From Polyangiaceae bacterium (lineage in GTDB: Bacteria; Myxococcota_A; Polyangia; Polyangiales; Polyangiaceae): a stretch of 64,000 nt of DNA. The stretch lies in contig JADLEQ010000019.1 in the NCBI GenBank assembly GCA_020846005.1, positions 62,001 to 126,000 of the forward strand, written 5' to 3'. The translations under genes were made by a program, and so were the position numbers. Of this stretch, positions 14,598 to 21,305 are shown in pieces (position 1 is the stretch's first letter; every line of letters begins with the position of its first letter). Under the pieces are notes generated by a model. That model was not told the origin of the DNA. It was given only the letters and a program-made list of their open reading frames with translations, and searched no databases.

Positions 14598-15061
14598 GCT
14601 CGCGGGCACCTGCCTGGCGCGCCGGCGCCCCGCTCGCGTGCGCCGCGGCGATCCTCTCCTGCGCGCCCCAGGGGGGTGAACGGGCGCAGGGTACTTTCGG
14701 GGTGCTGTGGGGCGGGCAGGTCCAGTCGCGCGCGACCCTCCCGCTCGAGCTGGATCGCTCGCGACAACGGATCGGGTTCCGCGTGGACTTCCCGCGCCCG
14801 CTCACCACGGAGACGCTGCTCGAGTGGGAGCTCGAGATGCCGGCCACTCGACGTCGACCGGCGCCGACGGGCCGGATCACCCGCCTCGGCCAGGTGAAGG
14901 TGCCGCCCGGCCGGCTGCGGGTCGAGCAGGAGACCCCGCTCGAGGCCGACGATCCCCCGGGGACCTGGCGCGTGCGGATCCTGGCCGGCGGCGAGGTGGT
15001 GCTCGAGCGCAGCTTCGAGGTCGTCGCGGGCGGGAGCCGGCCCGCAGCGTCGGCGCGCTGA
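14594..15061 (+). CDS. small secreted lipoprotein
   Basis: 155 residues from a GTG in a GTGA overlap with rsmA. The signal has an Arg-rich start and hydrophobic stretch APLACAAAILSC ending in an ILSC lipobox. The mature part, about 125 residues, looks all-beta (GTFGVLWGGQVQSRATLPLELD, GTWRVRILAGGEVVLERSFEVV) and ends with an immunoglobulin-like strand pattern. No family is recognised. A longer open frame begins inside rsmA but has no signal at its start. Confidence 0.65.
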   Translation: MSSRAPAWRAGAPLACAAAILSCAPQGGERAQGTFGVLWGGQVQSRATLPLELDRSRQRIGFRVDFPRPLTTETLLEWELEMPATRRRPAPTGRITRLGQVKVPPGRLRVEQETPLEADDPPGTWRVRILAGGEVVLERSFEVVAGGSRPAASAR

Positions 15062-15100
15062 GGGCGGCCGCTCGGGCGGGTCCGCCGGCGGCGTCGCGGC

Positions 15101-15129
15101 TTGACCCACGCCGGGACGCCGGCTTGGAT
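15101..15129 (+). promoter_or_regulatory. sigma-70-type promoter of the amidohydrolase pair
   Basis: TTGACC (15101-15106), 17-bp spacer, TTGGAT (15124-15129). The -10 ends 6 nt before the GTG start at 15136, so the message is probably leaderless. Confidence 0.5.
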
Positions 15130-15135
15130 GCTCGG

Positions 15136-16722
15136 GTGAAGGCGTTGACCGGCCTCGTGTCGATCGCGATCGCCGCGGGCTGCGCGGCGCGCCCGGCGCC
15201 GCCCGCCGCGTCGGCGCCGGCGGCTCCTGCTCCGGTCGCGGTGCCGGACGCCCCGTGGCGCGCCGCGGCCGAGGCCCCCTTCGCGCGAGAGAGCGGGAAG
15301 CCGCTATTCCTTCGCGGCGCGCGGCTCCTGCTCGGCGACGGCCGCGCGCTCGAGCGAGGCGCCGTGCACGTGGCAGAGGGCAGGATCGTCGGCGTGCACG
15401 AGGGGGATCCGCCGGCGCCCGCCGGCGCGGTCGTCATCGACGCGACCGGCAAGTGGGTGACCCCCGGGCTCATCGATACCCACTCCCACTTGGGCGTGTA
15501 CCCCTCCCCTCGCGCCGACGCCCACGCGGACGGCAACGAGGCGACCGCGCCGGTGACCGCCGCGGCGCGCGCGGTGGACTCCATCTGGGCGTTCGATCCG
15601 GGGTTCGAGCGCGCGCTCCGCGGCGGCGTCACCACGCTCCAGGTGCTGCCCGGCTCCGCCAACCTGATCGGTGGCCGCGCGGTGACGATCAAGCTCCGGC
15701 GCGCGACCGACCCGCGAGCGCTCCGCGTGGCCGGCTCGCGTGACGGCCTGAAGCTCGCGTGCGGGGAGAACCCGAAGCGCGTCTACGGGTCACGAAAGCA
15801 GGACCCGAGCACACGCATGGGAAGCGTCGCCGGGCAGCGCGCCGCCTTCGCGCGCGCGCGGCGGCTGATCGTGGAGTGGGATCGGTGGCGCTCTCACGAG
15901 CGGCGGCGGCTCGAGGAGCACACCGAGGCGACGCGACGTTGGCGCCATGCGCGCGCCGAGCGGCGCGAGCGAGAGCGGGCCTGCGCCGACCCGGGGAGCG
16001 CCGGGCCCACGGCGCGACAGTGCCGGGAGTGGCGCCGCGACTGGGCGCGCGAGGACGACGACCCGAGCACCACGCGCGCGCCGGTGCCGGAGCCTGGCGA
16101 GCTGCCGCCCGCGCGCGACCTCGAGCTGGAGACACTGGCCGGCGCGCTCGAGGGGCGCCTCCTCGTGCACGTCCACTGTTATCGCTCGGACGACATGATG
16201 GCGATGCTCGCGCTGGCCGACGAGGCAGGCTTCCGGATCCGCTCGTTCCACCACGCGCTCGAGGCGTACAAGATCGTGGACGTGCTCGCTGAGCGCGGCA
16301 TCGCCGTCTCCACCTGGGCGGACTGGTGGGGCTTCAAGCTCGAGGCGTTCGACGGCATCCCCGAGAACGCCGCGCTCGTCGAGCTCGCCGCGGGGCGCCC
16401 CGTCATCCACTCGGACTCCGCGGAGGGCATCCAGCGCCTGAATCAGGAGGCCGCCAAGGCCGTATGGGCTGGCAAACACGCTGGGCTCGACCTGGACGAG
16501 CGCGTCGCGCTCCGCTGGGTGACGATGAACCCCGCGTGGGCGCTCGGGCTGGAGGAGCGCGTCGGGCTGCTGGAGGCGGGGAAGGACGCCGACCTCGTCG
16601 TGTGGAGCGCGGACCCGCTGAGCGTCTACGCGCGCGCCGAGCGCGTCATCGTCGACGGCGTCGAGCGCTTCGACGCCGCGGCGCCCAGCGAGCCCTGGAG
16701 CGACTTCCAGGTGGCGCCATGA
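15136..16722 (+). CDS. amidohydrolase-family lipoprotein
   Basis: 528 residues from GTG. The short signal LVSIAIAAGC ends in a lipobox. The metal-dependent amidohydrolase fold has its ligand set intact: HSH at residues 116-118 (DTHSHLG), the His in VHVHCYRSDDMM near 345, the His in SFHHALEAYK near 370, and the Asp in IHSDSAEG near 424. A positively charged coiled insertion (about residues 235-290, ERRRLEEHTEATRRW) interrupts the barrel. Such proteins are usually annotated as imidazolonepropionase-like or dipeptidase-like; substrate cannot be assigned. It overlaps the next gene by 4 nt (ATGA). Confidence 0.85.
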   Translation: MKALTGLVSIAIAAGCAARPAPPAASAPAAPAPVAVPDAPWRAAAEAPFARESGKPLFLRGARLLLGDGRALERGAVHVAEGRIVGVHEGDPPAPAGAVVIDATGKWVTPGLIDTHSHLGVYPSPRADAHADGNEATAPVTAAARAVDSIWAFDPGFERALRGGVTTLQVLPGSANLIGGRAVTIKLRRATDPRALRVAGSRDGLKLACGENPKRVYGSRKQDPSTRMGSVAGQRAAFARARRLIVEWDRWRSHERRRLEEHTEATRRWRHARAERRERERACADPGSAGPTARQCREWRRDWAREDDDPSTTRAPVPEPGELPPARDLELETLAGALEGRLLVHVHCYRSDDMMAMLALADEAGFRIRSFHHALEAYKIVDVLAERGIAVSTWADWWGFKLEAFDGIPENAALVELAAGRPVIHSDSAEGIQRLNQEAAKAVWAGKHAGLDLDERVALRWVTMNPAWALGLEERVGLLEAGKDADLVVWSADPLSVYARAERVIVDGVERFDAAAPSEPWSDFQVAP

Positions 16723-18047
16723 CGGCGCGAGGGTTCTCCCGGCGCGAGTGGCTGGCGCTCGCGGGTTGTCTCGGCGCCCCCAGCGCGCTCGCGCAGCCGC
16801 GCGCAACCGCGCCGGCGAGCCCAGCAGCGGAGACGCTCGTGGTCCGCGCGGCCGCGCTGCTCCGTCCCGGACTGCCGCCGCTACGCGACGTCGCGGTCAC
16901 CGTCGCCGATGGGCTCGTCCGCGAGGTGACCGGGACGCCGGTCGACGCGCGGGAGTTCTCTCCGCCGGAGGGCACGATGACCGCCGGCTTCGTCGACCTT
17001 CTGACGAGCACGGGCCTCGTCGAGGTCGAGCTCGAGGCGACCTCACGCGACGACTCGCACCCGTCCCCGGATCCGATCCGCGCCGCGTTCCGCGCGGCGG
17101 ACGCCTACAACCCAGCGTCGATGGTGATCCCCGTCACCCGCATGGGCGGCCTCACCTCGGTCGGGGTCGTCCCGCGCGGCGGGCTCGTCGCCGGGCGGAG
17201 CGCGTGGGCAGACTTGGCAGGGGATACCGCCCAGGAAGCGCTCGCGGTGCCCGAGCTCGCGCTCCACGTCGCGATCGACGACGGCGGCCCCGACGGCGAG
17301 CACGTCTCACGCTCGACCTCGATCCTGCGACTCCGCGAGCTGCTCGAGGACGCTCGGGTGTTCGCGCGCAGCCCGGCCGCGTTCGAGCGCAACCAGCTCT
17401 ACCGGATGAGCGCGAGCCGACTCGATCTCGCCGTCGTCGGGCAGGCGCTCGCCGGCAAGCTCCCCGTCGTGTTCCACGTCGACCGCGCGAGCGACATCCT
17501 GGTCGTTCTCGCGCTCGCGAACGAGTGGAGACTGCGGGCGGTGGTGGCGTCGGCCGCCGAAGGCTGGCGCGTCGCCCGGCAGCTCGCAGCGGCGAAGGTG
17601 CCGGTGATCGTCAACCCATTCGACGACCTGCCGCGATCGTTCGCCGCGCTCCAGGCGAACGAGGGCAACGCCGCGCGGCTCGCGGCCGCCGGTGTGACGG
17701 TCTGCTTGTCCACCGGCGAGACGCACAACGCGCGCAAGCTCCGCCAGGCGGCGGGGAACGCCGTGCGCGCAGGCCTCCCCTACGACGACGCGCTGCGCGC
17801 GGTGACGTCGAGCCCGGCGCGGGCGTTCGGGCTCGACGCCCGATACGGCAGCGTGGAGCCGGGGAAGATCGCGAACCTCGTCGTCTGGTCGGGGGACCCA
17901 TTCGAGACACGGGTGCGCCCGACGGCGCTCTACGTCCGCGGCCGGCAGCTCGCCCTCCGCAGCCGACAGACGACGCTGTTCGGTCGGTACAGGAGCCTCG
18001 CCGAGCGCTCTCGCCAGGCGCGCGATCGCGCAGCACGGACACGTTGA
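16719..18047 (+). CDS. amidohydrolase-like protein lacking the HxH metal motif
   Basis: 442 residues with a twin-arginine-type signal (FSRREWLALAG, residues 6-16) and cleavage near SALAQ, so export through Tat is likely. The fold matches the amidohydrolase partner upstream (PGKIANLVVWSGDPF at the C-terminus). The segment that should read PGxIDxHxH is instead AGFVDLLTSTGL near residue 88, with no histidines. One expected His remains (VVFHVDRASDI). It may be a catalytically dead subunit or use different ligands. It is translationally coupled to the intact enzyme, which suggests the two products form a complex. Confidence 0.8.
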   Translation: MTARGFSRREWLALAGCLGAPSALAQPRATAPASPAAETLVVRAAALLRPGLPPLRDVAVTVADGLVREVTGTPVDAREFSPPEGTMTAGFVDLLTSTGLVEVELEATSRDDSHPSPDPIRAAFRAADAYNPASMVIPVTRMGGLTSVGVVPRGGLVAGRSAWADLAGDTAQEALAVPELALHVAIDDGGPDGEHVSRSTSILRLRELLEDARVFARSPAAFERNQLYRMSASRLDLAVVGQALAGKLPVVFHVDRASDILVVLALANEWRLRAVVASAAEGWRVARQLAAAKVPVIVNPFDDLPRSFAALQANEGNAARLAAAGVTVCLSTGETHNARKLRQAAGNAVRAGLPYDDALRAVTSSPARAFGLDARYGSVEPGKIANLVVWSGDPFETRVRPTALYVRGRQLALRSRQTTLFGRYRSLAERSRQARDRAARTR

Positions 18048-18188: not shown

Positions 18189-19676
18189 ATGGCGGGCGCA
18201 GAGGTCATTCAGTGTCGAGGCTGCGGCGCCTGGGTCGACCGCAGCGCGCGGTTCTGCGTGGAGTGCGGCGCCCAGATGCCGCGCGAGGAGGGCCCGCCGA
18301 AGACGTCGCGCGGGCAGGGCCTCGGGGCGACTCAGGCCGCAGCCCCGGACGCGAAGAAGTCACGGCGCGGTGAGGCCACGATCTCGGGCATGCCGCGGAG
18401 TCAGCCGCCACCCGCCGAGCCCAAGCCAGGCCAGCGCGCGGCCCGGGCGCTCGGCGCGACGGTCCTCGTCGAGCCGGCCGCAGCGCCCGTCACGCCCACG
18501 CGCGAACCGGCGCTGCCACAGGCCGACGCGCTCTCGCCCACGGGGTCGGCTCCGGTAGCGCCCGTCGGCATCCAGCAGACGGCCCCGACCGCCATGGCGA
18601 CGCCCGCCGCGGTGGCGCGCGCGCGTGTCGACCTGGTCGCGCCGGAGCCGGCGCCGTACACGGCGCGTGCGGGAGCTGCGATGGCTGCCGCCGGAGCCCT
18701 CCCGGCGGTCGACACGGTCGCGAGCGGCGGCGACGCGCCCCCCTTCAGTCAGCTCCTCAACGACCTCGACACCGGGTTCGACGCGATCCTCACCCAGGGC
18801 GGCGGCGCGCCGGCGGCGGGCGGCGTCCCGGCGCCGGAGGCGGCCGAGCTGTTCCAGCAGATCACCGGGCTGCACGCGCGCCCGCTGCGCGACTTCATGA
18901 TCGAGCTGCGTCTCGGCGACCCGCCGAAGGAGTGGCTCGACGTGTGCGGCCCGGCGACGGGATCGCTGCGCAAGAACGCCGAGCAGTTCGGGCTCCAGGA
19001 GCTCGCGGCCGCGCTCGGCGGGTTCGCCGCCGCGCTGGCGCAGGCGGACGCCACCGAGGGCACCGTCGTGACCGGCGCCGCGCGCGAGGCGCTCGAGTCG
19101 GCGTGGGCCGAGCTCGTGCGCGTCGCGCCCGCCGCGTTCGAGGTGAAAGACGAGAGCGACCGCCGGGAGCCGATCATCGTGCAGTCGCTGCTCCGCCAGG
19201 TCGCGGGGGTCGGTCGGGTGACCCTCGACCGGCTGCACGCCGCGGGGATCTCCGCGCTCTCGATGTACTGGGCCGCCCGCGCCGACGAGCTCGCCGCGGC
19301 CGCCGGGATCGCCCCCGAGGTAGCAGCGGCCATCGTCGCGCGGTTCACGCGCTACCGCGACGAGCTCGCCAGCGTCACGCCGACCGCCGACCGCGCCCCG
19401 GAGTACGCGCAGCTCGGCGAGCTCGTGAGCACGCTCGGTACGCAGACGCAGGCCTACGAGCAGGCGACGGGGTGGTCCGGCCGCCCCGACGGCGATCGGC
19501 GGCGGCTCCGGCGCGAGCGCGAGGAGACGCTGCAGGCGATCCAGGTCGTGCTCGCGCGCCTCGGGGAGCTCGAGCTGGTCCGCGGGCTCGAGCGACTCCC
19601 GTTCCACCGCAAGGTCGAGGAGCTGTCGAGCTTCCTCGCGCGAGCTCGGGCCAGCACGGAGGCGGCGAGGAGCTGA
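18189..19676 (+). CDS. zinc-ribbon and helix-hairpin-helix protein
   Basis: 495 residues. The N-terminus has a rubredoxin-like zinc ribbon (Cys9, Cys12, Cys23, Cys26; CRGCGAWVDRSARFCVECG). A disordered Ala/Pro-rich linker runs to about residue 190, then an all-helical domain. Near residues 335-395 a helix-hairpin-helix-like unit (VAGVGRVTLDRLHAAGISAL) appears, followed by a coiled-coil-prone tail (LRREREETLQAIQVVLARL). No named family is recognised. Its stop shares one base with the start of the pentapeptide gene, so the two are coupled; with the downstream bactofilin this points to a scaffolding role, which is inference. Confidence 0.75.
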   Translation: MAGAEVIQCRGCGAWVDRSARFCVECGAQMPREEGPPKTSRGQGLGATQAAAPDAKKSRRGEATISGMPRSQPPPAEPKPGQRAARALGATVLVEPAAAPVTPTREPALPQADALSPTGSAPVAPVGIQQTAPTAMATPAAVARARVDLVAPEPAPYTARAGAAMAAAGALPAVDTVASGGDAPPFSQLLNDLDTGFDAILTQGGGAPAAGGVPAPEAAELFQQITGLHARPLRDFMIELRLGDPPKEWLDVCGPATGSLRKNAEQFGLQELAAALGGFAAALAQADATEGTVVTGAAREALESAWAELVRVAPAAFEVKDESDRREPIIVQSLLRQVAGVGRVTLDRLHAAGISALSMYWAARADELAAAAGIAPEVAAAIVARFTRYRDELASVTPTADRAPEYAQLGELVSTLGTQTQAYEQATGWSGRPDGDRRRLRREREETLQAIQVVLARLGELELVRGLERLPFHRKVEELSSFLARARASTEAARS

Positions 19677-20890
19677 TGGCGGATCTCACGCGCGAGCAGG
19701 TGATCGAACGGGCGCGAGCGGGCAAGGGCTTCGCTCGCGAGGACCTGCGCGAGCTCGACCTCTCGGGGCTGGAGCTCGAGGGGGTCGATTTCGGGCGCGC
19801 CGAGCTCGACGGCGCGAACCTCGAGAACACGAAGCTGCGCGGCGCGAGCTTCAAGAACGCGAGCCTGCGCGAGGCCTTCCTCCGCGGGGCCGACCTCGCC
19901 GAGGCCAACTTCGACAAGGCGGACCTCGAGGGTGCCAACCTCGAGCGCGCGACGATCGCGGGCGCGAACCTCTCGCGAGCCAACCTCGAGGGCGCGAAGG
20001 CCGTCGAGGCGCGGCTGGCGGGCGCTCGCCTGACCGGCGCGCAGCTCGCGTCCGCCGATCTGGGCAAGGCCGATCTCGAGGGCGCAAACCTCGACCACGC
20101 GGAGCTCGCCGAGGCCTACCTGGGTGGTGCGCGCCTCCGCGGCGCTCGGATGGCCGCGGCCGCGATGAACGGCGCTAACCTCGAGGAGGCCGACCTCACC
20201 GGCGCGAGCCTGGAGGAGGCGTCGCTCGAGGGCGCGATCCTGCGCGCCGCCGATCTCTCTCGCGCGAGCCTGGCGGGCGGCGACCTGCGGCGCGCCCAGC
20301 TCACGGGCGCGCGCCTCATCGAGGCGGATCTCCGGCGCACCAAGCTCGAGTCGGCCAACCTCGAGGGGGCGACGCTGACGGGCGCGCGGCTGGCGGGCGT
20401 GGAGGCCCCCGGCGCTCGAGTGGCCGGGATGGTGGCCGACTGGGTCGACGCGAGCCCGGAGGGCGACGGCAGCCGTCGCGTCGCGGCCTCCGGCGTGGCG
20501 GCGCTGCTCGAGGGCAAGGCCGCGCCAGTCGCTCGTTACTTCGGCGAGGGCGACGTCCTCCGCAACGCGACCCTCGAGTTCGGCGATGGCTCGAGCGTCC
20601 AGATCGACAGCCGGTTCGAGAACTGCTCGCTCACCATCGGCCGGGGCACGGAGCTCGTCGTCGGCGAGGCCGGCGTGCTCAGCCAGTGCACGATCTCCGG
20701 AGCCGGCAACGTCACCATCCACGGGAGCTTCTTCGAAGCGAGGAGCCCGGGGATCGTCGGGCCGAGCCAGCTCGTCGTGAGCTCGCGCGGCGCCGTCGCC
20801 GGGACGGTCGAGCAACTACCCGAGGGAACTCGCTTTGCCTTTGCGCCGGGGTGCAGACTCCGGCTCGAGATCACCAAGAGTCGGCGATGA
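19676..20890 (+). CDS. pentapeptide-repeat protein with bactofilin-like C-terminal domain
   Basis: 404 residues. From about residue 25 to 250 it is a continuous series of A(D/N)Lxx pentapeptides (e.g. ANLENTKLRGASF), which fold as a right-handed quadrilateral beta-helix. After a short linker, residues of about 280-395 show the different, Gly/Val-rich strand pattern of bactofilin-type beta-helices (LTIGRGTELVVGEAGVLSQC, GNVTIHGSFFEARSPGIVG). Two stacked beta-helix types in one chain are unusual. No signal peptide. The start overlaps the upstream stop by one base (TGATG), and a bactofilin gene follows 34 nt later. Confidence 0.85.
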   Translation: MADLTREQVIERARAGKGFAREDLRELDLSGLELEGVDFGRAELDGANLENTKLRGASFKNASLREAFLRGADLAEANFDKADLEGANLERATIAGANLSRANLEGAKAVEARLAGARLTGAQLASADLGKADLEGANLDHAELAEAYLGGARLRGARMAAAAMNGANLEEADLTGASLEEASLEGAILRAADLSRASLAGGDLRRAQLTGARLIEADLRRTKLESANLEGATLTGARLAGVEAPGARVAGMVADWVDASPEGDGSRRVAASGVAALLEGKAAPVARYFGEGDVLRNATLEFGDGSSVQIDSRFENCSLTIGRGTELVVGEAGVLSQCTISGAGNVTIHGSFFEARSPGIVGPSQLVVSSRGAVAGTVEQLPEGTRFAFAPGCRLRLEITKSRR

Positions 20891-20924
20891 CCGACCCCTG
20901 CCCTTCGAGAAACGGACGACCCAC

Positions 20925-21305
20925 ATGAGCAACGGCGACAAGCGAACGCTGATCGAAGAGGGAACCGACTTCCGAGGCTCGATGTCGTCGAGCTGTCCGG
21001 TCGTCGTGAAGGGGCGGATCGAGGGCGAGCTGACCACCCCATCGCTGACGGTCGCGCGCAGCGGCGCCGTGCACGGCAAGGCCAACCTCGGAGAACTCAC
21101 GAGCGAGGGCGAGCTGTCCGGCGCCTTCGACGCCGACACCGTACGCCTCGCCGGGACGGTGAAGGACGGCACCTCCATCCGAGCCAAGTCGCTCGAGGTG
21201 AAGCTCGAGGCGTCCGACAAGATGCGCGTCGTGTTCGGCGACACGACGCTCTCCGTCGGCGATGAGCCACGCGACGAGGGCGGCAAGCGCAAGCGCGGCG
21301 AGTGA
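20925..21305 (+). CDS. bactofilin (polymer-forming cytoskeletal protein)
   Basis: 126 residues, the usual small bactofilin size. Bactofilins polymerise without nucleotide into filaments and place envelope or chromosome-segregation factors; myxobacteria have several. The DUF583 core is clear: GSMSSSCPVVVKGRIEGELT, SLTVARSGAVHGKANLGELT, ELSGAFDADTVRLAGTVK. Short charged tails flank it (N-terminal SNGDKRTLIEEG, C-terminal Lys/Arg-rich GGKRKRGE). Likely in the same operon as the preceding bactofilin-like fusion protein. Confidence 0.92.
   Translation: MSNGDKRTLIEEGTDFRGSMSSSCPVVVKGRIEGELTTPSLTVARSGAVHGKANLGELTSEGELSGAFDADTVRLAGTVKDGTSIRAKSLEVKLEASDKMRVVFGDTTLSVGDEPRDEGGKRKRGE

Follow-up and report, generated by a model that had tools for sequence, protein, structure and literature searches.

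What might a bacterium build from a bactofilin, a pentapeptide-repeat protein and a helical protein with a helix-hairpin-helix (HhH) domain, if the three genes are kept side by side? The question is raised by positions 18189-21305 of a stretch of 64,000 nucleotides from a Polyangiaceae bacterium (assembly GCA_020846005.1, contig JADLEQ010000019.1), which as a whole is called the window here. Open reading frame (ORF) calls place three genes of the same strand in a tightly packed operon:

18189-19676, + strand: gene A, an ORF of 495 aa and candidate adaptor, with a core conserved in 41 of 43 loci
19676-20890, + strand: gene B, 404 aa, with a pentapeptide-repeat solenoid, a linker and a predicted bactofilin-fold domain
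20925-21305, + strand: gene C, 126 aa, a stand-alone bactofilin with its domain at 20946-21212

The stop codon of A and the start codon of B overlap by one base (TGATG, 19674-19678) and the gap between B and C is 34 bp, confirming the three adjacent coupled genes of an initial annotation that had been made from the sequence of the window. The order of the genes is near-obligate across two phyla, the proteins have a characteristic domain anatomy, the N-terminal anchor of A has been exchanged and, at one locus, the anchor is fused to B; in addition, structure modelling predicts a bactofilin fold in B that sequence profiles miss. We propose, with about an even chance of being right, that A, B and C constitute one bactofilin-based scaffold cassette, with C as the filament, B as a decorating subunit and A as a tethering adaptor.

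Gene order and linkage

Two collections were searched: 184 genomes of the order to which the window belongs and about 85,000 public species genomes. Within the order, A and B are present in 39 genomes each and occur together in 37, with two genomes having A alone and two having B alone (Fisher p 6e-34, a value that serves as a guide only because the genomes are related). The scan of the public genomes returned 43 loci from Myxococcota and Acidobacteriota, and the carriers are certain soil and sediment bacteria: Minicystis rosea DSM 24000 and bins of Sorangium and Labilithrix are among the myxococcotal ones, Blastocatellia and Chloracidobacterium among the acidobacterial ones.

C lies directly behind B in all 43 loci, a count that rests on a profile grown from C, and C follows B in 30/30 loci of the window's order, where the profile was partly built from wrong-strand translations of three other bactofilin genes (L001, L003 and L004); the two counts are not independent, as the collections overlap and many genomes are in both. 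A is directly ahead of B in 41 of the 43 loci and the strand is always the same. The two loci with no A ahead of B are L090, where the contig ends, and L093, where a zinc ribbon is fused to B. In a Myxococcota-wide draw, with 10 candidates scored per genome, the trio was found in at least 7 of 379 genomes, all of them from the window's order, which lends no support to a broader spread within this phylum. Outside the window, the trio recurs in Myxococcota and beyond.

An all-against-all comparison of the flanking ORFs identified no other conserved neighbour, apart from Labilithrix-like genomes with dnaE upstream. A larger operon was rejected, the flanking ORFs being unshared outside close relatives. 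Conservation of the A-B-C order and strand with no other neighbour kept indicates that the linkage is maintained by selection on these three genes alone. In the window, the same-strand amidohydrolase-like ORF upstream ends at 18047, 141 bp ahead of A, and the downstream neighbour of C is on the opposite strand. Two tandem amidohydrolase-like proteins are encoded at 14707-18047 (+ strand; ORFs ending at 16722 and 18047), directly upstream of A, and the flanking-ORF comparison did not find this pair conserved as neighbours of the trio. A role in anti-phage defence was rejected: neither A nor B nor C has a match in PADLOC-DB at E values up to 0.01.

One locus, L106, is labelled Actinomycetota; its trio is placed firmly inside the Chloracidobacterium/Blastocatellia clade and the scaffold name says Acidobacteria. 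The label is probably wrong.

The bactofilin C and the cryptic bactofilin fold of B

By sequence, C is a standard bactofilin, as initially annotated: residues 8-96 match the Pfam family Bactofilin (PF04519) with E 8.8e-13 and 48.8 bits against a cut-off of 27.9, and the profile of the C family matches both solved bactofilins in PDB (2n3d and 6ria). Outside the cassette, the window genome encodes four further bactofilin domains, of which three are in tandem. The tandem genes (L001, L003 and L004, at G000:C44:52321-53301) resemble a cluster of the BacNOP type. The only protein with a ParB_N domain found in this genome is encoded on another contig, C9; a PadC-like ParB gene was thus not detected next to the cluster.

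B has three parts:

19733-20440, + strand: pentapeptide-repeat quadrilateral solenoid (B residues ~20-255; PF00805; HetL match), net acidic
20450-20530, + strand: variable linker from the solenoid to the bactofilin-fold domain, 26 residues here, modelled with the lowest confidence
20531-20881, + strand: predicted cryptic bactofilin-fold domain (residues 286-402), recognised by structural matches, with no profile match

The first half is, as annotated, a pentapeptide quadrilateral helix: eight stretches with A(D/N)LXX repeats match the family Pentapeptide (PF00805, E 1.8e-64), and in the AlphaFold2 model the N-terminal ~240 residues superpose on HetL (3du1) with Z 33.4 and a root mean square deviation (rmsd) of 1.1. 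The full-length model, built from 36 sequences, has a mean predicted local distance difference test score (pLDDT) of 93.2. In this model, residues 286-402 superpose on the bactofilin filament of Thermus (6rib; Z 15.7, rmsd 1.8, 101/101 residues), on BacA of Caulobacter (2n3d, Z 14.3) and on 6ria (Z 14.2); no other structural match listed lies solely within the C-terminal half of B.

The sequence of this half gives no such signal: PF04519 finds no match in the window copy at E values up to 10 and none in 24 relatives at E values up to 0.5, and hhalign aligns the domain with the C family with a probability of only 11%. Homology of the last ~120 residues to bactofilins at the sequence level was rejected, with no support from Pfam, NCBIfam, a PDB sequence search or hhalign. 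We nevertheless accept the bactofilin fold, because for the question of fold the structural match overrules the failed profile test. According to the model, B is thus a pentapeptide rod followed by a variable linker and a cryptic bactofilin-fold domain. The initial annotation had read the second half as bactofilin-type and had asked for a profile search and for structure prediction of residues 270-404: the predicted fold agrees with it, the negative profile result counts against it by its own wording, and the domain starts near residue 286 rather than 270.

The linker differs in length (26-51 residues) and composition among relatives and has the lowest pLDDT of the model (~65-87). This bears on another use of the same parts, also suggested initially, in which B would serve as a cap, seed or template for the C filament: the pentapeptide solenoid would block one end of its beta-helix, and B would limit or nucleate filaments. 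The bactofilin fold is indeed fused C-terminally to another solenoid, and, since bactofilin filaments have been described as lacking polarity (PMC12448750), a B subunit with one of its faces blocked would terminate the filament. As the two solenoids are parted by a variable stretch in which the model is at its least certain, nothing points to their stacking as one continuous column, and the face on the N-terminal side could be free; we consider capping or seeding unlikely and the suggestion unsupported.

The solenoid is acidic, with a net charge of -13 and a median of -11.5 in relatives, and it shares its fold with MfpA and Qnr (Z ~20). Both would suit a rod that mimics DNA and acts on gyrase in the manner of Qnr and MfpA, with the bactofilin domain merely localising it. 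However, the solenoid is far closer to HetL and to designed solenoids than to the gyrase inhibitors, and the NCBIfam Qnr models score far below their cut-offs, which leaves this the least credible of the explanations considered.

Just after the solenoid, B residues ~256-278 (window 20441-20509) are semi-conserved (WVDxSxxGDGSxRVxG...AxLSG) and include a short predicted helix. They may cap the pentapeptide solenoid.

The exchangeable N-terminus of A

From N- to C-terminus, A has a zinc ribbon, a long linker, a short acidic motif, a four-helix bundle, the HhH and the C-terminal helices. The N-terminal part comprises:

18213-18266, + strand: Cys4 zinc ribbon (C9, C12, C23 and C26), a clade-specific N-terminal module
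18282-18728, + strand: low-complexity Pro/Ala-rich linker, presumably disordered, of differing length among relatives
18753-18791, + strand: short acidic motif LLNDLDTGFDAIL, which recurs ahead of the core

The window copy has the motif C9-x2-C12 ... C23-x2-C26, and its matches to zinc-ribbon profiles are below threshold. The ribbon is present in 14 of the 43 loci and in the window and is not conserved throughout the A family. In about 17 loci, A starts with an amphipathic, basic sequence such as MGFFDRFFGKKKE, MGFFDRFFGKKKEEP or MGLFSKLFNKEGED (15 loci by pattern, L092 and L103 by eye). The zinc ribbon and the amphipathic helix take the same N-terminal place and were in no case observed together. 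When a tree is constructed from the concatenated A, B and C sequences, with no root inferred, the zinc-ribbon loci form one clade with a Shimodaira-Hasegawa-like approximate likelihood ratio test (SH-aLRT) value of 97; the amphipathic form is found in the acidobacterial clade and on several myxococcotal branches. This would be consistent with a zinc ribbon having taken over from an older membrane-type anchor in one lineage, a direction that we infer, the tree having no root. A pattern like the acidic motif is found in 27 of the 41 relatives that have A.

Some N-termini of A, MGFFDRFFGKKKE for example, are similar to the MFSKKKK-type membrane-targeting sequence that is the reported N-terminal consensus of bactofilins (PMC12448750). 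None of the 43 C proteins has a start of this type. We hypothesise, and do not count as a result, that membrane binding has been outsourced from C to A.

At L093 (= G138, the same place as L016; 5567-7369), the zinc ribbon, the linker and an acidic stretch resembling the motif of A, SLSEIDASFGEL, form one reading frame with the start of B, and no A core is present; this suggests that the anchor of A and B work in one complex. At L094 (4483-6236), A is split across two overlapping reading frames, by a frameshift or an assembly error. L069 has a shortened and divergent A.

The helical core of A

The remainder of A, some 290 residues, is its helical core, the sole part common to all relatives that have A:

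18831-19139, + strand: four-helix bundle with a shape like CheA P1 and histidine phosphotransfer (HPt) domains (model m865e92375c34)
19188-19340, + strand: HHH_5-like helix-hairpin-helix domain, with HHH_5 in 27 of 36 relatives and a match to the C-terminal half of UvrC
19395-19670, + strand: C-terminal region of long helices, from the AlphaFold2 model

The AlphaFold2 model of the core (m865e92375c34) has a pLDDT of 91.8 and a predicted template modelling score (pTM) of 0.85, and Foldseek identified no match to the whole fold at E 1e-3 or better. Solved structures similar to the bundle include the CheA P1 and HPt domains 1tqg, 1i5n and 9h6e (Z 9.5-11.8) and the designed bundle 3u3b (Z 12.3). 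For helical bundles, Z below ~13 may reflect a mere common arrangement, and the modelled likeness to HPt and CheA P1 is suggestive but no closer than is usual among helical bundles.

If the likeness were meaningful, A could be a signalling receiver, with a bundle that docks the receiver domain of a response regulator without phosphotransfer and so controls B/C assembly. P1 of Thermotoga CheA (1tqg, Z 11.8) and plant AHP1 (9h6e, Z 10.9) are indeed among the best solved matches, but the designed bundle scores at least as well. The phospho-histidine is not conserved: at the corresponding column, placed by eye against the HPt motif, only 1 of 36 relatives has His and the others have R, A, Q or other residues. 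Nor did the flanking-ORF comparison reveal a conserved receiver or kinase gene near the trio. A signalling role thus appears improbable.

The HhH is weak in the window copy (residues 334-384 match HHH_5 with E 1.4e-3 and 20.3 bits against a Pfam cut-off of 27), but HHH_5 is recognised in 27 of 36 relatives (E values up to 0.1, the best 2.4e-9); judged by these profiles, it is a real feature of the family. The zinc ribbon and HhH ascribed to A initially are thus both seen in the window, the HhH extending to most relatives and the ribbon to one clade. In structure, the HhH matches the C-terminal half of UvrC (2nrt, Z 8.6) and the HhH of RadA/Rad51.

HhH domains and zinc ribbons invite a DNA-binding interpretation, which the initial annotation had offered as one option. 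In a fuller version, A would bind DNA through both and link the bactofilin polymer to the chromosome, in the way that BacNOP and PadC do for ParABS. The family-wide HHH_5 matches and the structural matches speak for such a nucleoid anchor, as does the fact that bactofilins organise chromosomes in Myxococcus (PMC5703909). Yet GxG, the hairpin typical of HhH motifs that bind DNA, is found in the first hairpin of only 7 of 36 relatives, including the window copy, the core is acidic in most relatives, with charges down to -27, and the zinc ribbon is absent from most lineages, being replaced by the amphipathic N-terminus in many of them. As the hairpin is degenerate, the core acidic and the ribbon dispensable, DNA attachment is not supported and we rate it as distinctly unlikely, below capping and signalling.

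A possible scaffold and its mode of assembly

The proposal that we favour is the scaffold cassette, in which polymerisation, the co-assembly of B and C, membrane binding and every physical interaction are inferred. C would polymerise as the filament-forming bactofilin, and B would join the C assembly through its own beta-helical bactofilin-fold domain. The rigid pentapeptide rod of B, carried on a flexible linker, would project from the filament and space or bind a client. A would be the adaptor: its exchangeable N-terminal anchor, a zinc ribbon here and an amphipathic, membrane-type helix in other clades, would be connected by a long flexible tether and the short acidic motif to the helical core, and the core, with its HPt-like bundle lacking the phospho-histidine and its HhH, would contact B/C or a client. 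In this way A may tether the assembly to the membrane or to a partner of the zinc ribbon.

A more specific version, which we hold tentatively and as somewhat less probable than the cassette in general, is an obligate heteropolymer: C and B, two bactofilin-fold subunits with no detectable sequence similarity, would co-assemble, B would set its solenoids at a fixed spacing along the filament, and the dedicated A, its anchor exchanged in evolution, would retarget the scaffold.

Three observations weigh against the scaffold. The bactofilin-fold domain of B is divergent in sequence, with 19% identity to 6rib, and may no longer be able to polymerise. The A proteins of the Labilithrix group and of a few other loci have an N-terminus with neither anchor: either the anchor is not universal or the start sites are uncertain. 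Finally, the other bactofilins of the window genome likewise have no MFSK-like start, so its absence from C is not special to the cassette.

Relation to known systems

The nearest described system, and a precedent for the adaptor, is BacNOP-PadC of Myxococcus xanthus, also a member of the Myxococcota, in which the bactofilins BacNOP recruit clients via PadC, an adaptor with a long disordered N-terminus that is encoded beside them (PMC5703909). Both systems share the logic of bactofilin genes adjoining the gene of an adaptor whose N-terminus is long and disordered and whose C-terminal domain is folded; they do not share the pentapeptide, HPt-like and HhH domains. PadC has a ParB-like domain, whereas neither A nor any of the 36 relatives aligned with it has a ParB match listed by Pfam, and A has the HPt-like bundle and HhH instead. 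BacNOP are canonical bactofilins, while B is a pentapeptide fusion with a predicted bactofilin fold that is invisible to profiles.

C resembles Caulobacter BacA (2n3d) and the Thermus bactofilin (6ria, 6rib) by profile, and the C-terminal domain of B matches them in fold along its whole length; unlike them, B has no significant sequence similarity to bactofilins and bears a solenoid of ~240 residues. HetL, to which this solenoid is so similar, is a stand-alone heterocyst regulator, whereas B carries the solenoid on a putative bactofilin-fold domain and its gene is linked to that of a bactofilin. The modelled four-helix bundle of A is suggestive of CheA P1 and HPt domains, but A has no phospho-histidine and the cassette no kinase or receiver.

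The initial annotation knew of no described three-component arrangement of this kind, and neither do we from the literature searched: searches joining bactofilin with pentapeptide repeat or helix-hairpin-helix, or polymer-forming cytoskeletal with pentapeptide, returned nothing, with subscription journals largely outside their reach, and a search for bactofilin in Polyangi- returned a general Myxococcus review alone.

The locus thus represents a conserved bactofilin cassette with a protein whose predicted bactofilin fold is cryptic. Filament decoration, anchoring and retargeting are directly testable, since the parts are of manageable size and one of the hosts, Minicystis rosea DSM 24000, is a named strain. 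As profile searches miss the bactofilin fold of B, such partners of bactofilins may have been overlooked elsewhere.

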